Source: Oceanospirillum maris DSM 6286 (GTDB lineage: Bacteria > Pseudomonadota > Gammaproteobacteria > Pseudomonadales > Halomonadaceae). From it: 64,000 nucleotides of DNA. Shown here one piece after another: positions 1-12,669 of this stretch. The notes beneath the pieces are model-generated. The model ran no database searches. It was not told the origin of the DNA and worked only from the letters and a program-made list of their open reading frames with translations. Position 1 is the first letter of the stretch. Each line of letters opens with the position of its first letter. The stretch lies in the NCBI RefSeq assembly GCF_000422865.1, contig NZ_AUGW01000003.1:1-64000 (forward strand), written 5' to 3'. Both the position numbers and the translations under genes were made by a program.

Positions 1-58
1 CCGCATGCAGGGTGTTGTGGGGGCTGGAGGCTAGATACCTCCGGCTACCCGATTAGGC
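1..58 (-). other. attC site of the NTPase cassette, cut by the window edge
   Basis: On the - strand the NTPase stop codon lies inside GCCTAAT (52-58), a near match to the attC R'' core RYYYAAC. It is followed by an imperfect inverted repeat, AGCCGGAGG paired with CCTCCAGCC (about 24-48), as expected for an attC stem. The matching R' core GTTRRRY is not found before position 1, so the site runs out of the window. A cassette gene whose stop overlaps the first attC core is common in integrons. Confidence 0.6.
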
Positions 59-1735
59 ATTTTCAAGACTAACACCAAACTTTTTTACTCTCCTTTTATT
101 TATCTCACTTTCGGAAGCTATTTTCTGAAGAGCTTTCGTTGCTCGTTCAGCGATTTCCTTTTGTTGATCATTCGGGTTAGAAAATTGACCAAACTTCAGG
201 CACTTTGTAACAAAAGAAGATAAATGCCTTCCTTCTTCGTTTTTAAATAATTCGTAGTACTCATTAACAGTTGTATTTGCTAATACCGTTTCATCACTAG
301 GATTCCAACCATTACTACTAGCTATACGATCTAAAACCTGTTTTGCGGATTCTTGTGGGACTGATTGGTTATAAATGGCATTAAATTTTTGAACTACGTC
401 TGGATCTCGAATATCACCGAAGATATAAATTTCATCCATATCAAACAGCTCTACCTCATCCTTTCGGTTTTCAATATAGATATCAATTATTTCCAACGCC
501 TTTTGTTCTTCGCCAAGTTCTTTAAAAAGGGTTACGGTACCATTTAAGTTAGTTGGTGTTATGTATTTACAATTTGCTTTAAAGCTTTCATATAATTCGC
601 CAATAACAACATCGCCATTATTATCAAATGTATCGTGATATAGCCTCCACGCGTTAGAAAATGAATTTTCTGATTTTGAAGCAATGATTTGTTGATTTTT
701 TAATTTAGCTTTTTCATTCACTTCACTTTCAACAAAGAAACCTGTTTTTACGGCTTCCGCTAAAACTAAATCTAAATCATCAGTGAGTTGGTAGTTGTAC
801 GCTTGTAAGGTAGTTTGCCAACCTTTTTCTTTATCTGTAATTTCATCATCACCTATCCCAAGCAATGAATATCCCTTACTTGTAATAAAATCGAGTGGAG
901 GTATTCCATCATCAGTATTTGAAGTGAAATAGCTCCAAGAATAAAGTACAAGTGTGTGTATAACTTGATCTAATATTTCCGGTTCAAAATCTTTTACTAA
1001 AGGTAGAGATAAATCAATTAACCTCTCTATTTTCTTTAAAATTCTTATATTTCTTATATTAAGGCTGGTTGTTAATTCTTTAAGTCGATTGTGATAGCTA
1101 GCATTACCCGAGAAAGCAATAGCTGCACTTTCTTTTGGTTCTGGTGAAAAAGCCAACTCTATATCAATAACTTTTTCACGATATTTTTCATAATCTTGAA
1201 GCCCATCTTCACCATCATTTAAAAGGAGTACTACCTTGCACCCTTTTTGTTCTTTTAATAATGAGACTAAGCCTAGGACATCTTTAATATCAAGTCCTTT
1301 GTCTTTTCTCTCTAGATCATCAATACAAATAAGTGTTTTGTTCAATGATAAAAAGGAAATTGCTTCGATAGCTGGGCTAAATGATTTTACAATAGGAGCG
1401 CCCTTAAATAGATTTATAGATTGTCTTCCAACAGATTCTATAAGGCTAGTTGTATTATCCCTAAATGTATCAATGCTTGCAGCAGTACCAATTAGGTCAC
1501 GTTTTACAACATTTTCAAAAATAGTATATTTGAATGAGTCTAATGAACTTATGCCGAATAACGATACATATGAATAACGTTCAAGTTTCACCTTTTTATC
1601 CATACAAGCTTCAATCAGAAATTTTTTCCAACTAAAAGTTTTTCCTACACCCCACTCACCTTTTATTGCCATTACTTCTGGATGATCTGATGATAAGAAT
1701 TTAAAAATTTGAGCTTTGATTATTTCGACTGACAA
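53..1735 (-). CDS. KAP-like P-loop NTPase carried as an integron cassette gene
   Basis: This 560-residue protein has a Walker A motif GEWGVGKT at residues 26-33 and a Walker B stretch LICIDDLER at about 135-143, the pattern of KAP-family P-loop NTPases. No signal peptide or clear membrane helix is visible. The long C-terminal half (about 200-560) is helical and charged and I do not recognise it. The start is TTG at 1735, with GGAG about 10 bases upstream. It lies only 23 bases inside the cassette boundary, leaving no room for its own promoter, so expression probably comes from the integron promoter or a neighbouring cassette. The gene is visibly AT-richer than the flanking chromosome, consistent with acquisition. 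KAP-like NTPases occur in several anti-phage systems, so defence is plausible, but the substrate and partners are unknown. The family call is firm; the role is inferred. Confidence 0.8.
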   Translation of the reverse strand: MSVEIIKAQIFKFLSSDHPEVMAIKGEWGVGKTFSWKKFLIEACMDKKVKLERYSYVSLFGISSLDSFKYTIFENVVKRDLIGTAASIDTFRDNTTSLIESVGRQSINLFKGAPIVKSFSPAIEAISFLSLNKTLICIDDLERKDKGLDIKDVLGLVSLLKEQKGCKVVLLLNDGEDGLQDYEKYREKVIDIELAFSPEPKESAAIAFSGNASYHNRLKELTTSLNIRNIRILKKIERLIDLSLPLVKDFEPEILDQVIHTLVLYSWSYFTSNTDDGIPPLDFITSKGYSLLGIGDDEITDKEKGWQTTLQAYNYQLTDDLDLVLAEAVKTGFFVESEVNEKAKLKNQQIIASKSENSFSNAWRLYHDTFDNNGDVVIGELYESFKANCKYITPTNLNGTVTLFKELGEEQKALEIIDIYIENRKDEVELFDMDEIYIFGDIRDPDVVQKFNAIYNQSVPQESAKQVLDRIASSNGWNPSDETVLANTTVNEYYELFKNEEGRHLSSFVTKCLKFGQFSNPNDQQKEIAERATKALQKIASESEINKRRVKKFGVSLENA

Positions 1736-1752
1736 GGTGGTGACTCCAAGAT

Positions 1753-1829
1753 GCCTAACGTTCAGGTTAAGGGGCGGGCTTTAGCCCGTCCCAGCGAGCG
1801 AAGCGAGTGATTTGAACCGCTTGTTAGGC
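1753..1829 (-). other. Complete attC recombination site of cassette 1
   Basis: The - strand reads GCCTAAC (R'', 1823-1829), then an AAGCGGTTCAAA arm, a central hairpin with GGGCTAAAGCCC, a CCTTAACCTGAAC arm, and GTTAGGC (R', 1753-1759). This is the full attC layout: two inverted core sites, inner L arms and a palindromic centre, in 77 bp. The cassette crossover point is expected between the G and the first T of GTTAGGC, i.e. between 1759 and 1758. Confidence 0.92.
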
Positions 1830-1910
1830 TCGCGCTTGAGCCGAACGCTGTAAGCGGAAACAGCACGATAGCCGGCAATGCTTTTGCTTTTAAGTGCTGT
1901 GCCTGATCTT

Positions 1911-2105
1911 TCATGCTGTTTGTGCCGTTTCATGTGCTTTTTCTGCTTGGCGATTTTGGAGCGCCTCAGCGCCAGCGCGATGCCATGGCCGGTGTGCCGG
2001 ATATTGCTGAACCAGGATTGTTTGGCCCGCCCGCGATTTCAAATACCCAAAATTCTTTTCATGAGAAATACACGGTTTTGAACTATTGAATCCGCGATTT
2101 TCCAT
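1911..2105 (-). CDS. Uncertain small ORF of integron cassette 1
   Basis: This is the longest reading frame in cassette 1 that runs in the cassette direction: 64 residues, with AAGGAATG 9-16 bases before the ATG. It ends about 80 bases before the attC. I do not recognise the product. A second - strand frame over the same DNA is also plausible. It has one early TGA, then reads a very basic segment rich in K, R and H that runs open into the attC. The cassette may therefore hold a frameshifted gene, a small basic protein starting internally, or no protein at all. Low confidence. Confidence 0.3.
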   Translation of the reverse strand: MENRGFNSSKPCISHEKNFGYLKSRAGQTILVQQYPAHRPWHRAGAEALQNRQAEKAHETAQTA

Positions 2106-2130
2106 GCGAGCACATTCCTTTGCTTTGTAT

Positions 2131-2265
2131 GCCTAACATTTTAATCATAGGCATGCGCATTTATCCGATTTCAATATACCGGCAAAAACTGAGGAAAGAG
2201 TTTGATTAGAAAGGAAAAATCCATTTTCTAATTTGACTGCTTCCCTGCTAAACGCGCATGCGCAT
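2131..2265 (-). other. Candidate attI site
   Basis: GCCTAAC at 2131-2137 (GTTAGGC on the - strand) marks the junction between attI and cassette 1. The DNA between it and intI holds two direct copies of GCATGCGCAT (2151-2160 and 2256-2265). It also has an inverted repeat, ATTAGAAA at 2205-2212 paired with TTTCTAAT at 2225-2232. Repeats next to the attI core are known to bind the integrase in other integrons; here that role is inferred. The outer boundary of attI is not defined by sequence alone. Confidence 0.6.
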
Positions 2266-2407
2266 ATACGTCAATAACCGTGCGCCTGTTATTCCTGCGC
2301 CCGTTCCTATAATTCATTGAATTTACAGCTTATCCAATTTCGTAGCACCAGTAAACCGAGCATTAAGTCGGACAAACCGAGCACGTTTTTCTGCAAAACC
2401 AAAAATA

Positions 2408-2427
2408 TACTGTATATTTAACCATGC
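2408..2427 (+). promoter_or_regulatory. LexA-like box in front of intI
   Basis: TACTGTATAT matches the left half of the gammaproteobacterial LexA box exactly. Aligned to the 20-base consensus, I count 14 matches, with the right half degenerate. It lies 30-50 bases before the likely intI start, where LexA boxes sit in other SOS-controlled integrases. The weak right half makes this a candidate only. Confidence 0.4.
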
Positions 2428-2456
2428 AAGAGCAAATATCACATGGAGGGCGGTTT

Positions 2457-3416
2457 ATGGCTAAAAGTCCATTTTTGGAAAGCATCAGATCAGAGATTCG
2501 TTTGCGTGGCTACAGCATACGAACAGAGAAAACGTACATTCACTGGGTTAAACGCTTTATATTTTTTCATCAAAAACGTCATCCAGAATCGATGGGGGCA
2601 GAAGAGGTCAAAAGCTTTCTGACATCATTAGCGGTTCAGGGCAATGTTGCCATTAATACCCAAAAGACAGCGTTGAATGCATTGGCATTTCTGTATAACC
2701 AGGCTCTGAATCGGCCATTGGGAGACTTGGGTTTTCAATATGCTAGCAAGCCGAGAAATCTGCCCCATGTACTAAATAAGTACGAAGTAGGGAAAATACT
2801 AGCCGCATTAGAAGGCAAATACAGACTAATATTTTCAATCTTGTATGGCAGTGGTCTGAGGATTAGCGAATGCCTAAGATTAAGAGTTATGGATATTGAC
2901 CTTGAGCGCTGCTGTTTAACTGTAAGAAACGGAAAGGGCAATAAAGACAGGCAAACGATACTACCCAGATCGGTGGTCAATGAGTTATCTGTAGCAATAG
3001 ATGAAGCTATAAAAATCCAAAAAACTGATAACAAACAGGGTATAGGCCCATCGTTACCCTTTGCGCTGGATAGAAAATACCCAAATGCTTTCAGAGAACC
3101 GGCATGGATGTTCATCTTTCCATCATCAAGCCATTGTTCACACCCTATTAGCGGAAAAATTTGTCGCCATCATTTGCATGACTCGGTACCACGAAAGCAA
3201 CTAAAAACAGCTGTGGGAAAAGCCGGTATTTTTAAAAAACGGGTTAATTGTCATACCTTCAGGCACTCATTCGCAACTCAGCTATTGCTGGATGGGAGAG
3301 ACATACGAACCGTTCAGGAACTGCTTGGCCACAAAGATGTAAACACAACTCAAATCTATACTCATGTTGTTGGCCAATATTACGCAGGTACGAGTAGCCC
3401 GCTGGATCTACTTTAG
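2457..3416 (+). CDS. intI: Integron integrase (site-specific tyrosine recombinase)
   Basis: IntI catalyses attI x attC and attC x attC recombination to capture and excise cassettes. Starting at the ATG at 2457, it has 319 residues, the normal IntI length. GGAGGG lies 6 bases upstream; an in-frame ATG at 2424 overlaps the LexA-like box and has no ribosome site. The N-terminal SAM-like core-binding domain covers about 5-90 and the catalytic domain about 105-305. The full catalytic set is visible: R135, K160, H266, R269, H292 and the nucleophile Y301 (IYTHV). The extra patch that separates IntI from other tyrosine recombinases is present at about 202-245 (LDRKYPNAFREP ... CRHHLHD). No disabling mutation is seen, so the enzyme should be active. 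Confidence 0.95.
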   Translation: MAKSPFLESIRSEIRLRGYSIRTEKTYIHWVKRFIFFHQKRHPESMGAEEVKSFLTSLAVQGNVAINTQKTALNALAFLYNQALNRPLGDLGFQYASKPRNLPHVLNKYEVGKILAALEGKYRLIFSILYGSGLRISECLRLRVMDIDLERCCLTVRNGKGNKDRQTILPRSVVNELSVAIDEAIKIQKTDNKQGIGPSLPFALDRKYPNAFREPAWMFIFPSSSHCSHPISGKICRHHLHDSVPRKQLKTAVGKAGIFKKRVNCHTFRHSFATQLLLDGRDIRTVQELLGHKDVNTTQIYTHVVGQYYAGTSSPLDLL

Positions 3417-3525
3417 CTGGATATATTCGGTACAAATAACGAGCTACTTTAACTCTCTCCCCAACATCGGTTTACCCACTTCCCCCGTACAAAGCGGACA
3501 CTTCTTAACCGCAGGCATTATCCCT

Positions 3526-3705
3526 ATGTTTTCTCTCTTTAAGTCTGACCCGACCAAGAAACTGAAAAAGGAATACGCGGCTAAGCTGGAGCAGGCGATG
3601 CTGGCTCAGCGTAATGGCGATATTAAAAGTTATTCATTTCTGACGGAGGAGGCGGAGGCGATCTATCAGCAGATTACGGCGTTGGAGGCGGAGGAATCCA
3701 AGTAA
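3526..3705 (+). CDS. Small DUF6435-like protein
   Basis: This is a 59-residue, highly charged, mostly helical protein beginning MFSLFKSDPTKKLKKEY. It resembles a widespread small family (DUF6435) that also starts MFSLFK and carries an AxLEQAMxAQRNGDI-like stretch. Function is unknown. A longer in-frame extension back to 3364 would overlap the end of intI and looks unlike protein of this family, so I start at 3526. The ribosome site is weak. It lies between the integron and the beta-alanine operon, with no obvious link to either. Confidence 0.7.
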   Translation: MFSLFKSDPTKKLKKEYAAKLEQAMLAQRNGDIKSYSFLTEEAEAIYQQITALEAEESK

Positions 3706-3720
3706 GGGCGGTATGTATTA

Positions 3721-3760
3721 CCACGCGGAGCGTGGGAACGAGTCGAAACGTGGGAACGAG
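3721..3760. repeat. Dispersed CGTGGGAACGAG repeat, one full and one partial copy
   Basis: CCACGCGGAGCGTGGGAACGAG at 3721-3742 is a small hairpin (CCACGC paired with GCGTGG). It is followed by a partial copy, CGTGGGAACGAG, at 3749-3760. Related copies occur at 9720-9742, inverted at about 9983-9998, and partially at 10028-10039. It is a non-coding interspersed repeat. Confidence 0.7.
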
Positions 3761-3769
3761 TTGTAAACG

Positions 3770-3797
3770 AAAAAAGCCCCGATCGGTCAACCGGGGC
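3770..3797 (-). terminator. Rho-independent terminator of the bauA-mmsA operon
   Basis: On the - strand GCCCCG (3792-3797) pairs with CGGGGC (3776-3781) and is followed by TTTTTT (3770-3775). It lies 56 bases after the dehydrogenase stop. Confidence 0.85.
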
Positions 3798-3852
3798 AAC
3801 AAGCATCAAAAGGTGCACCTTTTACGGTGCGTAGAGAGGTAAGGACTGGCGA

Positions 3853-5358
3853 TCAGCTCGGGAAGGCGAAGCTAACGCCTTCACGTACACCGCTGGAGGG
3901 CCAGCGTTGGGTGATGGTTTTGCGTTTGGTGTAGAAGCGAACACCATCCGGGCCGTAGGCGTGCAGGTCGCCGAACAGGGAGCGTTTCCAGCCGCCGAAG
4001 CTGTGGTACGCAACCGGCACCGGCAGGGGTACGTTGATACCCACCATGCCCACTTCGATCATGTCGGAGAAGTAACGGGCGGCTTCACCATCACGGGTGA
4101 AGATGCAGGTGCCGTTGCCGTATTCGTGATCGTTGATCAGCTGCATCGCTTCTTCCATGGTGTTTACGCGCACCACTTGTAATACGGGGCCGAAGATCTC
4201 TTCTTTATAGCTGACCATCTCCGGTGTTACGCGGTCGATCAGGGTTGCGCCAACAAAGAAGCCGTTGTCGTAACCGGCTACCTGAGGTTCGCGGCCATCA
4301 ACGACGACGGTTGCGCCGTCTTTTTCGGAGCTTGAGATATAACCCACGACTTTATCCCGATGCTGGGCGGTAATCACTGGGCCAAAGTCGTTGCTTTGAT
4401 CAGAAAACGCGCCGACTTTTAGCGGTTTCATCGCTTCCTGTAGTTTACTGACCAGGGCATCCGCCGCCTGATCGCCCACGGCAACAGCCACAGACAAGGC
4501 CATGCAACGCTCACCGGAGGAGCCAAAAGCCGCCCCCAACAGCTGGTTTACGGCGTTATCCATATCCGCATCCGGCATAACGATGGCGTGGTTTTTCGCA
4601 CCGCCTAACGCCTGACAACGTTTACCGTTGGCACTGGCGGTGGCGTAGATATATTCCGCAATCGGGGTGGAGCCCACAAAGCTAACCGCCTTGATACGCT
4701 TATCCGTCAGTAGGGTATCCACCGCTTCTTTGTCGCCATTGACCACGTTCAGTACGCCTTCCGGCAGACCTGCTTCGTGCAGTAGCTGTGCAATATAAAG
4801 GGTTGAAGACGGATCACGCTCAGAGGGTTTCAGAACAAAGGTGTTACCGCAGGCGATGGCCAAGGGGAACATCCACATCGGTACCATGGCGGGGAAGTTA
4901 AACGGCGTAATACCGGCAACAACACCTAGTGGCTGGAATTCGCTCCAGGAGTCGATATTCGGGCCAACGTTTTTGCTGTATTCACCTTTTAATAATTCAG
5001 GAATACCGCAGGCAAATTCGACGTTTTCGATGCCCCGTTGCAGTTCACCCATAGCATCGTGGGCGATCTTGCCGTGCTCTTCGCCAACCAGGGCGCAGAT
5101 CGCTTCGGCATTTTCTTCTAACAACTGCTTAAAGCGGAACATCACACGGGCACGCTTTAGCGGTGGTGTTTGTCGCCATGCGGGATAGGCCGCCTGTGCA
5201 GTGGCTATCGCCTCTTCAACGGTGGCTTTGGAGGCCAGACCGACGTGCTTACTAATCTCGCCGGTTGAAGGGTTAAATACCGGCTGGCTGCGCTCGGCGT
5301 CCTGTACAATTTGGCCGTTAATGAGATGGCCGATGGTTGTACCTGATGTCGTTGTCAT
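3853..5358 (-). CDS. mmsA: CoA-acylating methylmalonate/malonate semialdehyde dehydrogenase
   Basis: This enzyme oxidises malonate semialdehyde (3-oxopropanoate) or methylmalonate semialdehyde with NAD and CoA to acetyl- or propionyl-CoA plus CO2. It has 501 residues, the normal length. The NAD-binding part contains TPFNFP (about 151-156). The active-site cysteine is C285 in SGERCMA. LGGAKNH (251-257) replaces the usual ELGGK, a feature of this CoA-acylating class, which lacks the general-base glutamate. The ATG at 5358 has AGGAG about 9 bases upstream. It follows the beta-alanine aminotransferase by 45 bases on the same strand, so its likely job is the second step of beta-alanine breakdown, like BauC of Pseudomonas; valine catabolism is the alternative. 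Confidence 0.9.
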   Translation of the reverse strand: MTTTSGTTIGHLINGQIVQDAERSQPVFNPSTGEISKHVGLASKATVEEAIATAQAAYPAWRQTPPLKRARVMFRFKQLLEENAEAICALVGEEHGKIAHDAMGELQRGIENVEFACGIPELLKGEYSKNVGPNIDSWSEFQPLGVVAGITPFNFPAMVPMWMFPLAIACGNTFVLKPSERDPSSTLYIAQLLHEAGLPEGVLNVVNGDKEAVDTLLTDKRIKAVSFVGSTPIAEYIYATASANGKRCQALGGAKNHAIVMPDADMDNAVNQLLGAAFGSSGERCMALSVAVAVGDQAADALVSKLQEAMKPLKVGAFSDQSNDFGPVITAQHRDKVVGYISSSEKDGATVVVDGREPQVAGYDNGFFVGATLIDRVTPEMVSYKEEIFGPVLQVVRVNTMEEAMQLINDHEYGNGTCIFTRDGEAARYFSDMIEVGMVGINVPLPVPVAYHSFGGWKRSLFGDLHAYGPDGVRFYTKRKTITQRWPSSGVREGVSFAFPS

Positions 5359-5403
5359 ATGGATTCGCTCCTGGTGCTTAAATTGGGTAAAGGTGCTGCG
5401 GTC

Positions 5404-6768
5404 TTAATCAACTTCGTTCAGAGATTCACCGATTGCGTTAATCACGCTATCAATCTCATCGGTCTCAACGGTAAAGGGCATACCCAACTGCAGGGTGTCG
5501 CCGCCGTAACGCACATAAAAACCTTTTTCCCAACACTTCATCGCCACCTGATAAGGGCGCAGAGCCGGTTCACCCGGTGCAGATTCCAGCGTGATACCGC
5601 CCGCTAAGCCATAGTTACGGATATCCGTTACATGGCGCGAACCTTTAAGACTGTGCAGCATCTCCTCAAACTTAGGCGACATCTGTTTAACACGGGGAAT
5701 CAGCTGATCTTTTTCCAGAATATCCAAAGAGGCCAAACCTGCGGCACAGGCCAACGGGTGTGCCGAGTAGGTATAACCGTGGGGCAGTTCGATCATATAG
5801 TCGTTGCCGCCGTTATCCATAAAGGTATCGTAGATCTCTTGCTTGGCGATCACGCCGCCCATAGGGACAACACCGTTGGTGATCTGCTTCGCTACAACCA
5901 TAAGATCAGGGGTTACACCAAACTCTTCCGCGCCGGAGTATGAGCCCATACGGCCAAAGCCGGTGATTACTTCATCAAAAATCAGCAGTAAGTTGTGCTT
6001 ATCGCATAGCTCGCGCAGGCGCTTCAGGTAGCCTTTTGGCGGTGGAATCACGCCAATAGAACCAGCCATTGGCTCCACAATAACACCGGCAACATTAGAG
6101 GCATCACTTACCGCAAGCAGCTCTTCCAGATAGTCTGCCAGGTGCGCGCCATCATCCGGCATACCCTGCACAAACTTATTGTCGGGCAGCATGGTATGGG
6201 GCAGATGCACCGCATCAATACCCTGACCATAAAGCACTCGGTTCGGGCCGATGCCGCCCACACTGATACCGCCAAAGTTCACCCCGTGATAGCCCTTGGC
6301 ACGGCCAATAAAGCGGGTTTTAGTGCCCTGGCCTTTCTTACGCCAATAAGCCCGGGCTATTTTTAACGCCGTTTCAACCCCTTCAGAACCTGAACCGGTA
6401 AAGAAAACACGGCTTAGCTCATCAGGCATAAGCGCTGTTATACGCTCAGCAAGCTGGAAAGATTTAGGGTGGCCGTACTGAAAAGCAGGGGCATAATCTA
6501 ACTGTTTCACCTGCTGGCTGACCGCTTCAACGATCTCTGGGCGGGCATGACCGGCACCACAGTTCCAAAGACCCGAAAGCCCGTCAAAAATCTTACGACC
6601 ATCTGCGTCGGTGTAATAATGGCCTTCAGCAGAAACCAATAAACGCGGATCTTTTTTAAACTCTCGGTTACTGGAGAAAGGCATCCAGTGAGCATCCAGT
6701 TGTGATTGGGTTAAATCACAGTTCGCCATGCGCTGTTCTTTTTGCTTCAAGCTATCGTTAGAAGGCAT
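5404..6768 (-). CDS. bauA: Beta-alanine (omega-amino acid):pyruvate aminotransferase
   Basis: This is a class III PLP-dependent aminotransferase of 454 residues. It moves the amino group of beta-alanine to pyruvate, giving malonate semialdehyde and alanine. Visible motifs are GSGSEG (125-130), the PLP-stacking YHG (160-162), D265 in FDEVITGFGR, and the PLP lysine K294 in VAKQITNG. The sequence HWMPFSSNREF near the N-terminus is typical of omega-amino acid:pyruvate transaminases. GAGGTG lies 6 bases before the ATG. It is the first gene of an operon with the downstream semialdehyde dehydrogenase and is divergent from a LysR regulator, as in Pseudomonas bau loci. The free 3-aminopropionate could come from spermidine degradation by the nearby polyamine genes. 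Confidence 0.9.
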   Translation of the reverse strand: MPSNDSLKQKEQRMANCDLTQSQLDAHWMPFSSNREFKKDPRLLVSAEGHYYTDADGRKIFDGLSGLWNCGAGHARPEIVEAVSQQVKQLDYAPAFQYGHPKSFQLAERITALMPDELSRVFFTGSGSEGVETALKIARAYWRKKGQGTKTRFIGRAKGYHGVNFGGISVGGIGPNRVLYGQGIDAVHLPHTMLPDNKFVQGMPDDGAHLADYLEELLAVSDASNVAGVIVEPMAGSIGVIPPPKGYLKRLRELCDKHNLLLIFDEVITGFGRMGSYSGAEEFGVTPDLMVVAKQITNGVVPMGGVIAKQEIYDTFMDNGGNDYMIELPHGYTYSAHPLACAAGLASLDILEKDQLIPRVKQMSPKFEEMLHSLKGSRHVTDIRNYGLAGGITLESAPGEPALRPYQVAMKCWEKGFYVRYGGDTLQLGMPFTVETDEIDSVINAIGESLNEVD

Positions 6769-6945
6769 ATCACACCTCGGTAAAAATGGTTGTTGGATTC
6801 CTCTGTCTGCATAGGGCCGGTTTATTCACTAACCGCCGGTTTGGCCAAACCCTGTAAACAGACAGGTGGTAACGCGTAACACCTTGATCGTTTGACCATT
6901 ATCAATAAGTTTTTAGTTTATTAAATCCAAACATATTTACTCTAG

Positions 6946-6963
6946 GTTAACTTTTTAGTTAAC
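6946..6963. promoter_or_regulatory. Candidate LysR operator between bauA and its regulator
   Basis: GTTAAC at 6946-6951 is repeated at 6958-6963, and because each copy is self-complementary the whole 18-base unit is a near-perfect inverted repeat. It lies in the 252-base divergent intergenic region, about 60 bases before the regulator start. Position and symmetry suggest the regulator's binding site; this is inference. Confidence 0.45.
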
Positions 6964-7020
6964 TAATGGCTCCGCGCCTGTTCTGATATCCAGAAGCGCT
7001 GCAATAGAGACGCGCCAGCT

Positions 7021-7971
7021 ATGAGCCAGAAAGATAACTTCCTACCTCGCCAGATTGGCGATGCCCATATCCGCCTATTGCGCATCTTTAAAGTGGTGGT
7101 AGAGTCTGGTGGCTTTGCCGCAGCGGAGGTGCAACTCAATATTAGTCGCCCGGCGATCAGCCAGGCCATTACCGAGCTTGAAGGTTTAATTAATACCCGC
7201 CTGTGTCATCGGGGGCGCTCTGGTTTCTCCGTGACAGAATCTGGGGAAGCGGTCTATCAGGCTACGCTGCAATTATTGGCAGGTCTTGAGGATTTTCGCA
7301 GCCAAATCAATGCGTTAAATCGAGATTTAAAAGGCGAACTGAACATCGGTATTACCGATAATATGGTGACAGTGCCCCAGATGCGGATCACCCGCGCCCT
7401 AGCTGCCTTAAAAGCCCGGGGGCCAGATGTGGTGATCAATATCCGTATGATTCCCCCCAATGATATTGAAAGTGCGGTACTGGATGGCAGCCTGCATATT
7501 GGCGTGGTGCCAGATCTACGCACCCTACCGGGCATTGAGTATCAATCCCTGTATGAAGAGCAATCCCTGCTGTACTGCAGCCACCAACACGCCCTATATC
7601 AAGATGATGATCGCACGCTAACCAACAGAAAATTAGCACAATACGATGCGGTGCTTCCCGCCTATGCTCAGGCCGCTCAGATCAAAAAACAGCAGTTGGT
7701 ATTAAAAGCCTCCGCCAGCTCAACGGACCGAGAAGGTATCGCTTTTTTAATTTTAAGCGGGCGTTATATCGGATTTTTACCCACCCATTATGCGCAACGC
7801 TGGGTAACAGAGGCGAGATTACGCCCCCTGCAACCCGAGAAGCGTTATTTTCATACCCATTACTCCGCCATTACCCGTAAAGGCGCACGGCCTAACTTGG
7901 TACTGGACGCTTATTTAGAAGAGCTGGCTAAAACCGGAGACGAGATAGCAAGCACTGAGGGAAAGTACTAA
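7021..7971 (+). CDS. bauR: LysR-type regulator, probably of beta-alanine catabolism
   Basis: This is a 316-residue LysR-family activator. It has a winged helix-turn-helix at about 17-76 (AAAEVQLNISRPAISQAITELE) and a substrate-binding effector domain from about 100 onward. It is divergent from bauA-mmsA, the usual LysR layout, so it most likely senses beta-alanine or a derivative and activates that operon while repressing itself. The ribosome site before the ATG is poor. Assignment as BauR rests on context plus family; it could also act on the PuuC-type dehydrogenase downstream. Confidence 0.75.
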   Translation: MSQKDNFLPRQIGDAHIRLLRIFKVVVESGGFAAAEVQLNISRPAISQAITELEGLINTRLCHRGRSGFSVTESGEAVYQATLQLLAGLEDFRSQINALNRDLKGELNIGITDNMVTVPQMRITRALAALKARGPDVVINIRMIPPNDIESAVLDGSLHIGVVPDLRTLPGIEYQSLYEEQSLLYCSHQHALYQDDDRTLTNRKLAQYDAVLPAYAQAAQIKKQQLVLKASASSTDREGIAFLILSGRYIGFLPTHYAQRWVTEARLRPLQPEKRYFHTHYSAITRKGARPNLVLDAYLEELAKTGDEIASTEGKY

Positions 7972-8160
7972 AAGGAAAACTAATTTAACGGGGTCTATCA
8001 CTACCTATCAGGTGATATTGTCGTGCCTTGATGCAAAGCGCACACTTAAATTTATTGCACGTGTCCGACAAGATTTTTTTATAAAAAAAGCTATAAAACT
8101 CGAACAATTATTCGTAAAGAGCCGCAAGCCTTATCGAATCAACAGACCAGGAATTGAGCT

Positions 8161-9693
8161 ATGACACAGATCCCTATTATGCCACATACACAGCCGCAGC
8201 CCCTTAACGTTGAAGAGATCGACTGGGCGGCACAGATAAGCACCATTGCCACACCGAATTACGCCATTATTAATGGTGAAAATGTAAGCGCCCGCTCCGG
8301 TAAAACCCAACCGGTAATCAACCCAGCAACCGGTCAAAAAGTTGCTGATGTTGCAGACTGTGGGCCGGAAGATGCCGATATCGCGGTAAACATTGCCCGT
8401 AAGACCTTCGAAGCCGGTACTTGGGCTAACTTGGCTCCCGCCGCTCGCAAAAAAATCCTGCTACGCTGGGCGGATCTGATTGAAGAACACAAAGCTGAAA
8501 TTGCCCTGCTAGAAAGCATCAGCGCCGGTAAACCGATTAGTGATTGTTTTGATATCGATGTACCCAGCTGTTTAAATACGATTCGCTGGACCGCAGAAGC
8601 GATCGACAAGGTTTATGAAGAGATCGCCCCAACCAGCCACGATACTTTGGCCCTGGTAACACGCTTACCTCTTGGGGTGATTACCGCCATTGTGCCGTGG
8701 AATTTTCCATTATCCACCACCGCGTGGAAGCTGGCCCCCGCTTTAGCGACCGGTAACTCGGTTATCTTAAAGCCAGATCCTAAAACTCCATTTACAGCGC
8801 TTAAAATCGCAGAACTTGCCCATAATGCTGGTCTACCCGCGGGTGTGCTACAGGTCTTGCCCGGCGATGGCATCAATCTAGGTAAGCACCTTTCTTTACA
8901 CCCCGATATCGACGGTCAGACATTTACCGGCTCCACCGGCGTAGGCAAGCTGCTGATGCAGTATGCGGGGCAGTCCAATCTGAAACGCACCTTCCTTGAG
9001 CTAGGTGGCAAAAGTGCCAATATCGTCTTTGCCGATGCCAACTTAGAAAAAGCAGCGGATGCCGCAGTGCTTGCGGGCTTTTATAACTCTGGCCAAACCT
9101 GTACCGCTGGCACGCGTTTGCTGGTGCAAGATGAGATCTACGATACCTTTCTAGCCATGGTACTAGAGCGAGCCAAAAACTGGTGCCCCGACAACCCTCT
9201 CAGCCCAAAAACCAATATGGGGCCGGTGGTGGATCAGCGCCAGCTGGATACCATTCAGGGTTATGTGCAGAAGGGGATCAAAGAAGGTGCCAAACTCGTT
9301 TATGGCGGCAAGGTGATGCAACATGAGCTGGGCGGTTTCTTCCATGAACCCACCATTTTTGCAAACGTAGATAACGCCATGGCGATTGCACAGGAAGAGA
9401 TCTTCGGCCCTGTCATGTCTGTGATCCGCTTTAAGGATGCGACAGATGCGGTACACATCGCCAATGACTCACCTTACGGCCTGGCGGGTGCCGTATGGAG
9501 TCTGAATATCAATACCGCGCACAAAGTTGCCGCCGCCGTACGTACCGGCACCATGGGCGTCAATAACTACTTTGGCGGTGATATCACCGTACCCTTTGGC
9601 GGCTTTAAAGAATCCGGCAATGGCCGCGATAAATCCCTACACGCCATGAATGACTACACTGAGCTAAAAACGACTTGGATTGAGTTTGAGTAA
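8161..9693 (+). CDS. puuC: Gamma-glutamyl-gamma-aminobutyraldehyde / omega-aminoaldehyde dehydrogenase
   Basis: This NAD(P)-dependent aldehyde dehydrogenase has 510 residues. The NAD-site asparagine is N181 (PWNFPLS), the general base is E280 (LELGGKS), and the nucleophile is C314 (NSGQTCTAG). It is closest to the PuuC/KauB group, which oxidises 4-aminobutanal, 3-aminopropanal or their gamma-glutamyl forms to the acids. AGGAATT lies about 7 bases before the ATG. It sits alone downstream of the LysR gene with a 189-base gap, so it probably has its own promoter. It would serve both the SpuC route and the gamma-glutamyl route encoded further right. Confidence 0.88.
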   Translation: MTQIPIMPHTQPQPLNVEEIDWAAQISTIATPNYAIINGENVSARSGKTQPVINPATGQKVADVADCGPEDADIAVNIARKTFEAGTWANLAPAARKKILLRWADLIEEHKAEIALLESISAGKPISDCFDIDVPSCLNTIRWTAEAIDKVYEEIAPTSHDTLALVTRLPLGVITAIVPWNFPLSTTAWKLAPALATGNSVILKPDPKTPFTALKIAELAHNAGLPAGVLQVLPGDGINLGKHLSLHPDIDGQTFTGSTGVGKLLMQYAGQSNLKRTFLELGGKSANIVFADANLEKAADAAVLAGFYNSGQTCTAGTRLLVQDEIYDTFLAMVLERAKNWCPDNPLSPKTNMGPVVDQRQLDTIQGYVQKGIKEGAKLVYGGKVMQHELGGFFHEPTIFANVDNAMAIAQEEIFGPVMSVIRFKDATDAVHIANDSPYGLAGAVWSLNINTAHKVAAAVRTGTMGVNNYFGGDITVPFGGFKESGNGRDKSLHAMNDYTELKTTWIEFE

Positions 9694-9719
9694 TCGTCAT
9701 ATCCGGTAAGCCCTGCATT

Positions 9720-10042
9720 CCCACGCGGAGCATGGGAACGAGCCAACATTGACGCCCTAAAGGGCGACCTACAATAAGGCTGGCGGGCTTTAGCCGGTGG
9801 GCGTTGGAACGAAGTGAGCATTGACGCCCTAAAGGACGACCTACAATAAGGCTGGTAACCTGTGGGTCGGGCTTTAGCCGGTGGGCTTTGGAACGAAGTG
9901 AATATTGACACCCTAAAGGGCGACCTACAATAAGACTGGCAACCTGTGGGTCGGGCTTTAGCCCGTCAGACTGCCCCATATTCCCATGCTCTGCGGCTTG
10001 TGAAGTGTATTGTCACAGCCTCGAATCATGGGAACGAGCCAG
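9720..10042. repeat. Intergenic block of hairpin repeats (three tandem units plus GGGAACGAG elements)
   Basis: Three tandem units start at about 9749, 9821 and 9905, with periods of 72 and 84 bases. The 12-base difference is a missing TAACCTGTGGGT in the first unit. Each unit carries a GCCCTAAAGGGC-type hairpin, the sequence GACCTACAATAAG, a GGGCTTTAGCC-type hairpin and TTGGAACGAAGTGA. Copies of the CCACGCGGAGC(G/A)TGGGAACGAG element flank the array at 9720-9742, inverted at about 9983-9998, and partially at 10028-10039. The frames open across the array are products of the repeats, not genes. Confidence 0.85.
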
Positions 10043-10072
10043 AAAAGCCCGGTCAGCTATGTGGCTGACCGG
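10043..10072 (-). terminator. Rho-independent terminator of the cupin gene
   Basis: On the - strand the perfect 9-base stem CCGGTCAGC / GCTGACCGG (10064-10072 and 10049-10057) has a 6-base loop and is followed by GCTTTTC. It lies about 50 bases past the cupin stop. Confidence 0.75.
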
Positions 10073-10124
10073 ACTTTCAGGTATCTCAATTCAACGGGCC
10101 GATCAAAGAAACATGCGCCGTAAG

Positions 10125-10502
10125 TCAGCCTTCACTCTCTTCATAAATCGCATAGAACTTTTTCGCATGACCTATCGTATGCCAGGTTCCTTTGTAGCCC
10201 GCAGGTATTACAAAGGCGTCCCCAGCACTTAGAATCTCTTCACTACCTTCTGCATCCGTTAGTACAACACGGCCTGAAATCAAGTAACAAAATTCATCCT
10301 CTGTATAATTCAGCTCCCACTTACCCTCGGTTGAAGACCAAACACCACAAAAGAAATTTTCTTTACTATTAGTAAATAGATTTTCAACACATTCTTTAGG
10401 TGATCCCGCTAGAACCCGCTCGGGGTTAACAGGATTAACCGCGCCGTCTGCCGCGCTATATCCGCTTTTAATGCGTTGTAATTTTTGTACTGGCTGTGTC
10501 AT
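10125..10502 (-). CDS. Cupin-domain protein (DUF861 type), BauB-like
   Basis: This small single-domain cupin has 125 residues from the ATG at 10502; GAGAG lies about 7 bases upstream, and an upstream in-frame ATG at 10532 has no ribosome site. The beta-barrel core is visible as WELNYTEDEFCYLISGRVVLTD followed by GDAFVIPAGYKGTWHT. No enzyme activity can be read from the sequence. Similar small cupins occur in beta-alanine and polyamine catabolic loci, including (from memory, not checked) BauB of Pseudomonas. Here it follows the TetR gene on the same strand after about 150 bases. A role in the pathway is inferred from location only. Confidence 0.7.
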   Translation of the reverse strand: MTQPVQKLQRIKSGYSAADGAVNPVNPERVLAGSPKECVENLFTNSKENFFCGVWSSTEGKWELNYTEDEFCYLISGRVVLTDAEGSEEILSAGDAFVIPAGYKGTWHTIGHAKKFYAIYEESEG

Positions 10503-10651
10503 GTCGTGCTCTCGCTTCTTGAGTGATGGCAACTGATACGCGTCATGTTGCGGCTCATCCCATAAACACAGATAAATTATCGGCGTAGATGTTGATGGCT
10601 CTTAGAAATTAAATTTAGATATTGATCGGTATTAAATGTGATCAATGGTGC

Positions 10652-11347
10652 TTATTTTTCTGGCAAATAAGTCCGTAACAACGATGCCAGCATAAATTCA
10701 AGATCAGCAAAGGTGCGCTTGGCTCTATCGCCTTTCTGGTTAACCACCACCAGAAAAACACTGTGCGTGGTTTCCAGATACAAACGCCCAAGCCGCTCCC
10801 TTTCTCGGATATGGCGATTAATGCCCATCCGCTGAAACACCTCCGCCATGCGGGTGATTTCCAACTCATCATGCTGCTCATCAAGTTCTCGTAACTCCGG
10901 CACCGAGAACATCGCCTGTACCAACGCCAATATCGCTTTTTGACGACGATAAACACCAAGCTTAAGCTTCAGCATTTTAGGAAGTAGGGTATCAAGGCCC
11001 ATCGTTTCAATTGGCCAGCGGGCTATTTCATCCAAGGCCGCTTCTACTTGCTCCAACCAACAGGTGCCCATGGCATGTAAAATGGCATGCTTGTTGGGAA
11101 AATAGTGATACAAAGATCCCACCGAGATACCCACCGCCTTCGCGATCAAAATAGTGTTCAGATCATCTAGGCCGATCTGATCCAGTAGCTCCGCTGTGGC
11201 ATCAATAATCTGTTGAGAGCGCTGCTTAGAGCGATCTTGCACCGGCGCATGACGAGGCTTCAGACTCTGGGATTGTTTCTTTTGACGCACAGCGTTTGAT
11301 ACGGCCTGCGTTTTAGAGCCTGTTTTCGTATCCGTCATGGTGATCAT
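10652..11347 (-). CDS. TetR-family regulator in the polyamine cluster
   Basis: This 231-residue protein has an N-terminal basic tail (about 1-45). A TetR helix-turn-helix follows at about 45-92 (IIDATAELLDQIGL ... AKAVGISVGSLYHYFPNKHAIL). The helical ligand domain is unrecognised. It follows the PuuB-like oxidase by 11 bases and is probably cotranscribed. The start is uncertain: AAGGAAAG lies 2-3 bases before the first ATG (11347) and about 11-12 before a second ATG at 11338. The effector may be a polyamine or gamma-glutamyl intermediate, and targets probably include the 12670-13085 divergent promoter region. This is inference from position. Confidence 0.82.
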   Translation of the reverse strand: MITMTDTKTGSKTQAVSNAVRQKKQSQSLKPRHAPVQDRSKQRSQQIIDATAELLDQIGLDDLNTILIAKAVGISVGSLYHYFPNKHAILHAMGTCWLEQVEAALDEIARWPIETMGLDTLLPKMLKLKLGVYRRQKAILALVQAMFSVPELRELDEQHDELEITRMAEVFQRMGINRHIRERERLGRLYLETTHSVFLVVVNQKGDRAKRTFADLEFMLASLLRTYLPEK

Positions 11348-11358
11348 CTTTCCTTATA

Positions 11359-12669
11359 TTAAAAGAATCGGTCTCGGAGGGAATAAAACAACATACCCGC
11401 TACCAAACCCGGCCAACGCAGCAAGGTGCCACCGGGAAAACTTGGTGTTGGTACTTTTGCAAATAGATCAAAGCGCTCGGCACTGCCGCTAATCGCTTCC
11501 GCCATCAACTTACCGCCCAGTGTTGCCAGTGCAACACCATGACCGGAGTAACCTTGAGCAACGAAAATAGCGTCATCAACCCGATCAAAATGCGGCATAC
11601 GGTTTAAGGTAATCGCCAAAGTGCCTCCCCAGCCATAATCAATGCGGGCATCTTTTAGCTCAGGGTAATATTCCAGCATATAGGGTCGAACAAAGTTACC
11701 GATATCCTTCGGGAATTTAGACGAGTAGTTTTCACCGCCGCCCCACAATAAGCGGTTATCGCCGGAAAGCTTAAAGTAGTTAATCACAAAGCGAGAATCA
11801 GCCACGGCAATATCATCACGATTGATACGCCGACAGGTCGCGTCATCTAAAGGTTCTGTTGCCAAAATAAAGTTATTAATTGGCATAATTTTACTGGCAA
11901 TACGCGGTTCTAAATTGCCTAAATAACCGTTACAAGCCAGTAAGAGATATTTGGCTTTCACCTGACCTTGCTCGCACTCAACGGTTACCTGTGAACCCTC
12001 TACCGTTTTATGGCTGGCATAATGGCTAACGCGGCTATTCTCATAAAAACGAACACCTGCTTTCTCTGCGGCTTGAGCTAGGCCAAGGGCATAGTTTAAA
12101 GGATGCAGATGGGCACCTTCTGTCCAGTATTCACCTGCACCGAAACGTTCGCAGCCCAGCATGGCAGACACCTCGTCGGGTTCCACATATTTTAGAGCAT
12201 CGTAATTCAGGACACGATTTTTGTACTCAACGGTTTCTTTAATATGGGCGTTGTGAGCTGGTTTTGCGGCAACATGCATAACGCCCTGCTTTAAATCACA
12301 TTGAATATCATGTTTGGCGATCAACGCTCTAACAAGGTCGACCGACTCAAGGGACATCTGCCAAAGCAAATCAGCGCTGGCTTTACCCAGTTTTTTCTCA
12401 AGCTCTTCATGGCCCATATTATGACCTTGACACACTTGACCGCCATTACGGCCTGAAGCCCCCCAGCCGATGCGTTCCGCTTCAAGTACCGCAACCTGGT
12501 AACCTTGTTCCGCGAGATGCAACGCCGCCGAAAGCCCCGTAAAGCCTGCACCCACAATGCAAATATCCGCCTGAACCTCGCCTTTTAGGCAAGGGTAGTC
12601 TGGCTTAGCTTGAGCCGTATCGGTGTAATAAGACGGTTCATAGCCTAAAAGTCCGCAGCCCTTCGTCAT
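11359..12669 (-). CDS. puuB: FAD-dependent gamma-glutamylputrescine oxidase-like protein (first copy)
   Basis: This is a DAO-family flavoprotein of 436 residues from the ATG at 12669; GGAGATC lies about 6 bases upstream and a longer frame to 12708 lacks a ribosome site. The Rossmann motif is GAGFTG at residues 40-45, followed by the glycine-rich GWGASGRNGGQ. The FAD-binding C-terminal YSGHGVALATLGGKLMAEAI is also present. PuuB oxidises gamma-glutamylputrescine to gamma-glutamyl-4-aminobutanal, releasing ammonia and peroxide. It is divergent from a PuuA-like ligase, the enzyme of the preceding step, which supports the call. A paralogue lies at 37523-38806; which polyamine each prefers cannot be told. 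Confidence 0.85.
   Translation of the reverse strand: MTKGCGLLGYEPSYYTDTAQAKPDYPCLKGEVQADICIVGAGFTGLSAALHLAEQGYQVAVLEAERIGWGASGRNGGQVCQGHNMGHEELEKKLGKASADLLWQMSLESVDLVRALIAKHDIQCDLKQGVMHVAAKPAHNAHIKETVEYKNRVLNYDALKYVEPDEVSAMLGCERFGAGEYWTEGAHLHPLNYALGLAQAAEKAGVRFYENSRVSHYASHKTVEGSQVTVECEQGQVKAKYLLLACNGYLGNLEPRIASKIMPINNFILATEPLDDATCRRINRDDIAVADSRFVINYFKLSGDNRLLWGGGENYSSKFPKDIGNFVRPYMLEYYPELKDARIDYGWGGTLAITLNRMPHFDRVDDAIFVAQGYSGHGVALATLGGKLMAEAISGSAERFDLFAKVPTPSFPGGTLLRWPGLVAGMLFYSLRDRFF

Follow-up and report, generated by a model that had tools for sequence, protein, structure and literature searches.

A KAP-like NTPase carried as an integron cassette in Oceanospirillum maris: a candidate single-gene anti-phage protein with relatives in prophage hotspots and phage-plasmids

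Introduction

At the left end of a contig of Oceanospirillum maris DSM 6286 (NZ_AUGW01000003.1, assembly GCF_000422865.1), a gene for a large P-loop NTPase lies alone next to an integron, which raises the question of what such a protein does as the cargo of a mobile cassette. We analyzed this locus within the window (i.e., the whole stretch of 64,000 nucleotides from the start of the contig) and followed its relatives in genomes, plasmids and viral contigs. An earlier note, made from the letters alone, had proposed the gene as a single-gene phage defence. Our analysis suggests that it probably encodes a horizontally mobile single-gene anti-phage protein, here in the form of an integron cassette.

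The NTPase gene as an integron cassette

The following features were identified at the left end of the window:

1..53, plus strand: 3' end of a group II intron (tail of domain V and domain VI), of the IIC-attC type by position (Rfam, genome copies)
53..1735, minus strand: KAP-like P-loop NTPase gene (PADLOC PDC-S49, 4.7e-24; phrog_4740, 7.1e-84)
54..59, minus strand: surviving part of R'' (TAGGC- on the plus strand; sequence and Rfam end point)
1744..1747, minus strand: GGAG, Shine-Dalgarno-like, 8 nt 5' of the TTG and kept in the Pseudoalteromonas copy (L003)
1753..1829, minus strand: attC of the preceding cassette, 77 nt, R'' and R' complementary at 7/7 bases, single copy in the genome
1760..2137, minus strand: preceding cassette, position 1 of the array, with a 64-aa ORF at 1911-2105
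2131..2137, minus strand: GTTAGGC core site, probable junction of attI and first cassette (sequence)
2424..3416, plus strand: integron integrase gene intI (NCBIfam TIGR02249, 390.5 bits against a curated cut-off of 265)

The NTPase gene is an intact frame of 560 aa on the minus strand with a TTG start and zero internal stops, and the plus-strand frame over the same interval (53-1735) is full of stops when its translation is read. Its G+C content is 0.328, against 0.461 for the window. Several hallmarks of an integron cassette were present, i.e., an upstream core site of the form G^TTRRRY, a correctly oriented neighbouring attC, and an adjoining integron integrase. Specifically, the cassette begins at the recombination point G^TTAGGC (1759/1758) of the attC at 1753-1829, and the TTG start lies 23 bases (1758-1736) from the G^TT cut after position 1759. 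This distance is exactly the one given in the earlier note, whose description of the NTPase as a cassette is likewise borne out by the complementary R bases of the attC and the true intI beside it. At about 1.7 kb the cassette is large for an integron. If the core site at 2131-2137 is the attI junction, the NTPase cassette would be the second in the array, the 64-aa ORF of the first being without a match in NCBIfam. Of the NTPase cassette's own attC, R'' alone is left in the window, the site being interrupted by the group II intron and then by the contig end, and the intron junction falls within the stop codon TAA (53-55). At the gathering threshold, Rfam gave zero matches in window positions 1-12000.

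Further traces of integrons were observed elsewhere in the genome of O. maris. A partial second integrase match of 150 bits, below the cut-off, lies at 68544-68954 of contig C14. A second cluster of attC sites is found at the end of contig C1 (L060, 11000-13337), with no integrase in the stretch read; an attC at 11130-11223 is accompanied there by a cassette that carries an ORF of 87 residues and by a gene for a Fic protein (NF007672, above cut-off), behind which the contig end truncates an attC-like stretch. On contig C11 (L062, 8668-9843), a lone attC-like site with one mismatch (9154-9231) lies between acetyltransferase-like and LysE-like genes, named by eye, and adjoins the end of a group II intron.

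A near-identical copy in Pseudoalteromonas

A copy of the gene was detected in Pseudoalteromonas rhizosphaerae, with a protein 94% identical to that of the window and coding DNA identical at 1573 of 1683 positions. When window positions 1-4000 were compared with 17.7 kb of this locus, the sole significant block covered 1702 positions at 93.5% identity, and it spanned from position 1759 (the G of the recombination point) to position 58 (in R''). Ungapped agreement was 22/24 for the bases 5' of the start codon and then fell to 7/36 and 12/40. A simple attC scan of the Pseudoalteromonas locus found no attC; when closed on the core site, a tail of 65 bases there is able to adopt the fold of a weak attC, which is consistent with a cassette and is no proof of one. 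On the evidence of this alignment, the cassette has been transferred between genomes, and its boundary is conserved in the Pseudoalteromonas copy.

The dN/dS between the two copies is 0.105, and the frame is a real gene under purifying selection, not a chance ORF. These observations also bear on the reading of the cassette as a decayed or idle passenger. Its own attC is broken by the intron, so that it may be locked in place, and no promoter-like site was seen on the minus strand between 1600 and 2500; against this stand the intact 560-codon frame, the low dN/dS, the start signals kept in Pseudoalteromonas, and the place as second cassette, which would be close to the promoter of the integron itself. 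We therefore regard an idle passenger as very improbable.

A predicted AAA+-like core with a helical C-terminal part

The protein consists of an AAA+/KAP-like NTPase part (residues ~1-275) and a helical C-terminal part (~272-560). The former contains a Walker A motif (GEWGVGKT, G26-T33), the motif YSYVSLFG (54-61), and a Walker B motif (ICIDDLER, 136-143), and N173 and R231 would correspond to a sensor-1-like residue and to the lid arginine, respectively. We aligned the window protein with those of six genome loci and 26 of the 47 viral loci described below (alignment A2, 33 rows), leaving out nine long matches for redundancy (not checked singly), eleven partial ones, and one locus with a stop codon (L084). 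Among the positions invariant in all 33 are GxWGVGKT, Y56, S58, F60, G61, D139, D140, E142, and R143, followed by N173, E187, K188, N229, and R231; W363 is the sole invariant residue of the C-terminal part.

The assignment to the KAP type made in the earlier note stands in part. On the one hand, it is favoured by the Walker A motif, by the Walker B motif of the DDxxR type, and by Pfam PF07693 (KAP), which 32 of the 33 aligned relatives match with an E-value no higher than 0.01 (best 4.6e-9). On the other hand, the window protein itself scores 16.2 bits, under the gathering cut-off of 20. Many KAP proteins have transmembrane segments inserted in the NTPase domain. The window protein shows no clear transmembrane segment, its maximum Kyte-Doolittle mean over 19 residues being 1.19, so a membrane KAP protein is unsupported and we use the name KAP-like. 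Among the 33 aligned proteins this mean exceeds 1.6 in two (L095, 1.61; L100, 1.79) and reaches 2 in none; outside the alignment it is 1.86 in a relative from Nostoc and 2.78 in the distant protein of L107.

AlphaFold2 modelled the whole protein with a mean pLDDT of 84.8 and a pTM of 0.68, and the model of residues 1-281 superposes on ORC/Cdc6 AAA+ cores (7jgr_D, Z 13.6, 226 residues, 4.8 A). Folded alone, the C-terminal 289 residues gave a pLDDT of 86.1 and a pTM of 0.57 and were helical throughout, with a pI of 4.6. Foldseek returned zero matches for this model at E 0.001 or better, and the best fold match (VIA, Z 7.6) is too low to be meaningful for a helical model; such a blank is no proof of a new fold. 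A match to DNA ligase 4 in the PDB profile search (58 positions, E 0.001) found no support from the fold comparison. In the profile and fold searches, nothing in the C-terminal part pointed to an effector such as a nuclease or TIR domain. The effector-like character given to this region by the earlier note is not supported; it is an all-helical acidic domain in which no catalytic domain was recognised, and a sensor or scaffold would be likelier than an effector.

Relation to known defence systems

All of the 33 aligned proteins match PADLOC family PDC-S49 (PDLC05029-05031), a phage defence candidate which, like the gene of the window, consists of a single gene. Residues 23-404 of the window protein align to positions 28-412 of the 624-position profile (4.7e-24), while its last third lies outside the match and it is about 60 residues shorter. 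In contrast, the proteins of L109 and L115 match PDC-S49 from end to end (5.7e-88 and 3.3e-120, respectively), and they resemble the window family over part of its length, whereas members of that family resemble one another over their full length. Judged by these profile matches, the window protein is a relative of PDC-S49 rather than a member, and represents a separate family of KAP-like NTPases. As a candidate it is not entirely new, since PADLOC already lists relatives. Neither the name PDC-S49 nor a test of the family was found in the open-licence literature, from which a test in a subscription journal may be missing. Two other PDC candidates gave no defence when tested, according to the available part of PMC12409345.

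In PifA of plasmid F, which excludes T7, the P-loop NTPase is likewise KAP-like and aligns with that of the window protein over 184 columns (hhalign E 3.1e-5, probability 73%). PifA differs in that it is 741 aa long and has its own PADLOC family, and no alignment beyond the NTPase was found; its profile gave no match for the window protein at E 1. Tmn is described, in the accessible text of PMC11846954, as a KAP-family NTPase defence system with two transmembrane domains, and differs from the window protein, which has no such stretch (maximum 1.19), in a comparison by description. RdrA of RADAR superposes over its AAA+ core alone (8hr8_G, Z 12.0, 239 residues, 5.0 A); RADAR also has the deaminase RdrB (PMC9994260, in the part available), and no RdrB-like gene was seen beside the NTPase of the window. 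Regarding the platform, integron cassettes carrying phage defence genes have been described in Vibrio and in mobile integrons, and the available parts of the two papers (PMC12409362, PMC12444791) name no KAP-like NTPase. With the O. maris gene, a large KAP-like NTPase would join the cassettes that may serve integrons as a store of defences.

Sparse distribution and prophage hotspots

Carriers of the gene were few at every taxonomic depth, with 6/293 genomes in the draw from the order, 5/369 in that from the class, and 8/398 in that from the phylum, where each draw counts the genome of the window itself and one further genome is common to two draws. A role as core housekeeping gene, which the earlier note had named as an outcome that would speak against defence, is rejected on this sparse distribution. 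Several chromosomal copies stand alone among apparently ordinary genes, with ORFs judged by eye (e.g., L006, and L008 of Vibrio renipiscarius, the same stretch as G964). Among viral contigs, a scan with the single sequence found no close relatives, and an alignment-based scan identified 47 loci.

In 18 of the 47 viral loci, the first large ORF downstream of the NTPase is a P2-like portal gene, and replication gene A lies upstream on the same contig in 15 of these 18; in 7 of those 15, the NTPase is the sole gene of at least 130 aa between A and Q. In another 5/47, psu and int directly flank an NTPase cousin, as in P4-type satellites, and 24/47 show neither arrangement. Some of the 23 loci in hotspots look like near-duplicates, so that these counts are not numbers of independent events. 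For portal, Psu and integrase, one or two representatives each were identified with PHROGs and the names extended by blastp; gene A was assigned without a PHROGs run, the E. coli gene at that place being annotated as a replication endonuclease. Full-length relatives are found at the P2 A-Q locus, and the five proteins of the P4 locus are cousins that detectably share about the first 320 profile positions.

The same arrangement recurs in E. coli, where 130 of 5426 genomes have DNA resembling the P2-locus relative L071, always on the chromosome; three records are full length at ~91% identity and the other 128 are at 60-80% over less than 80% of the query. All three regions that were opened read A, NTPase, portal, with other cargo between. 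With such relatives available in E. coli, a direct test would be straightforward.

Both loci have been published as anti-phage hotspots. As far as its available text goes, PMC9122126 describes the P2 A-Q and P4 psu-int loci as such and reports that, besides old-tin, 3/8 further cloned systems of the P2 locus were active against phages; functional systems at the same P2 place are also described in the accessible part of PMC9519451. The word KAP is absent from the available parts of both texts. According to the same portion of PMC9122126, the P2 locus holds non-defence cargo too, e.g., partition genes. The defence reading is supported because relatives of the window protein occupy these published anti-phage hotspots.

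Three further cargo proteins beside the NTPase in the P2 hotspot had no PADLOC match, i.e., an HsdR_N-type protein (L119, 3999-6650), an LA2681-type HEPN protein (L117, 3989-5566), and a 773-residue protein (L081, 2825-5146). These are fresh defence candidates.

Accessory cargo of phage-plasmids and a possible conjugative element

Relatives with 25-28% identity were found in two SSU5-type plasmids (L038, L039), in both of which the NTPase gene lies between a ParA-like pair and replication genes (DnaB-like helicase genes). Five slots of this type were inspected in all (L038, L039, L120, L121, L122), and in phage SSU5 itself and two further plasmids the slot is filled by other genes. The neighbouring helicase is found in 930 plasmid records at E 1e-40, of which 755 have at least 60% identity. 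The NTPase has matches in 136 plasmid records, whatever their type, and in 108 of them a match covers at least 80% of the protein; with the E. coli relative as query the figures were 131 and 111, respectively. Seven phage records contain an NTPase match, and SSU5 is not among them. A core gene of SSU5-type phages is ruled out, since the helicase is common, the NTPase is sparse, and SSU5 has other genes in the slot. On this comparison of records, the NTPase is accessory cargo in SSU5-type phage-plasmids, and the variable slot, bounded by the ParA-like pair and the gene that precedes the DnaB-like helicase, is a possible additional hotspot of defence.

The position next to partition and replication genes also suggests a different function, in which the NTPase would serve the maintenance of its carrier by aiding replication, partition or packaging, and the integron copy would be a stray. 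Consistent with this, the fold is nearest to the ORC/Cdc6 AAA+ cores, and partition genes are among the P2 cargo. The accessory nature of the gene (136 plasmid records against 930 for the helicase next to it) argues against a maintenance factor, as do phage SSU5, which has the helicase and other slot genes without the NTPase, the lone chromosomal copies, and the cousins in satellites. Altogether we find this explanation improbable.

A relative in another locus (L032) lies behind traG-like and small ORFs, which we take to be a conjugation operon. Entry exclusion genes are known at such a position in the conjugation operons of ICEs. If this rule and the gene assignment hold, the target of the NTPase might be plasmids, conjugation or a superinfecting related element, and not lytic phage, and many of its carriers are indeed plasmids or prophages. 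The active systems of the P2 locus were scored against phages in the available part of PMC9122126, which counts against this target, and we consider it unlikely.

Defence genes among the neighbours

Defence genes also occur in several neighbourhoods. We compared 18 distinct neighbouring proteins (19 submissions) with PADLOC at 1e-5, and 12/18 matched a family while 6/18 did not; these proteins were chosen by eye, and for that reason the result is an illustration and not a measured enrichment. DruE of Druantia adjoins the copy in Nostoc, and an SpbK-like TIR protein the one in Agrobacterium. IetA and IetS (IetAS) are near the Rhizobium copy, HsdS and PtuA/PtuB (Septu) are two or more genes away from the copy in Vibrio metschnikovii, and a type II methyltransferase is found in one P2 locus. 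An Old-like protein lies ~4.7 kb from the NTPase in L029, and weaker PADLOC matches were a SIR2-like protein in L033, a pAgo-like protein in L031, and an ankyrin protein in the Pseudoalteromonas locus.

The earlier note had advised a search for homologues in defence islands. They were found at the P2 A-Q locus (18/47), at the P4 psu-int locus (5/47), in the SSU5 slot, and next to defence genes, and together with the relation to PDC-S49 these places support its proposal of a candidate single-gene phage defence.

A possible mechanism

The anti-phage protein proposed here could work as an ATP-switched sensor. The NTPase would be the ATP-controlled switch, and the helical C-terminal part would sense a phage product or bind a target. 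Upon activation, the protein might assemble and halt the infection, through abortive infection or through interference that jams a phage process; no separate catalytic effector was recognised. A bolder version, which we offer tentatively and think rather doubtful as a whole, is that of one immune NTPase family without an enzymatic effector, traded among five mobile platforms (i.e., the integron cassette, the cos locus of P2-like prophages, the SSU5-type slot, the conjugative element, and, for the cousins, the cos locus of P4 satellites), whose ATP-driven ORC/Cdc6-like core and helical sensor would jam phage replication or packaging. The doubt applies to the five platforms and the effector-free jamming jointly. 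In any case, what was a database candidate related to PDC-S49 becomes a well-anchored target, with a prophage hotspot, satellite cousins, a phage-plasmid slot, and a cassette twin in Pseudoalteromonas.

A group II intron in the attC of the cassette

The intron at 1-53 is inserted in R'' of the NTPase cassette's own attC, antisense to the cassette. Its match to Rfam Intron_gpII is weak and truncated (23.0 bits, E 0.76) because the window edge cuts the element. A matching element directly behind an NTPase relative of 59% identity (L024) reached 42.4 bits, against a gathering score of 40. A 66-base query from the intron end gave 18 matches in the genome of O. maris at E up to 10, and 11 of these (that of the window included) were 84-100% identical over at least 55 query bases. 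A search for the maturase domain in this genome found two places, one of them in a 444-residue ORF (reverse transcriptase). Probably, a multicopy intron repeat ended the contig at this point. Introns of the IIC-attC type insert at TTGT/T in R'' on the bottom strand of attC, in the direction opposite to the cassettes, according to the accessible part of PMC7923331. On the 3' side of the intron in the window, the exon begins with TAGGC of the R'' box, antisense, which fits the TTGT/T rule; the 5' side lies beyond the contig end.

The same kind of intron end was thus observed behind the NTPase stop codon in two genomes, at 1-53 of the window and at 1851-1920 (minus strand) of L024. With NTPase copies that are only 59% identical, the shared position may reflect either an insertion of common ancestry or repeated targeting of attC. 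An integron integrase (494 bits) is also encoded in the genome that contains L024 (G627), and just before its gene the printed sequence, read by eye, shows a frame for a reverse transcriptase and a 3' end like that of an intron.
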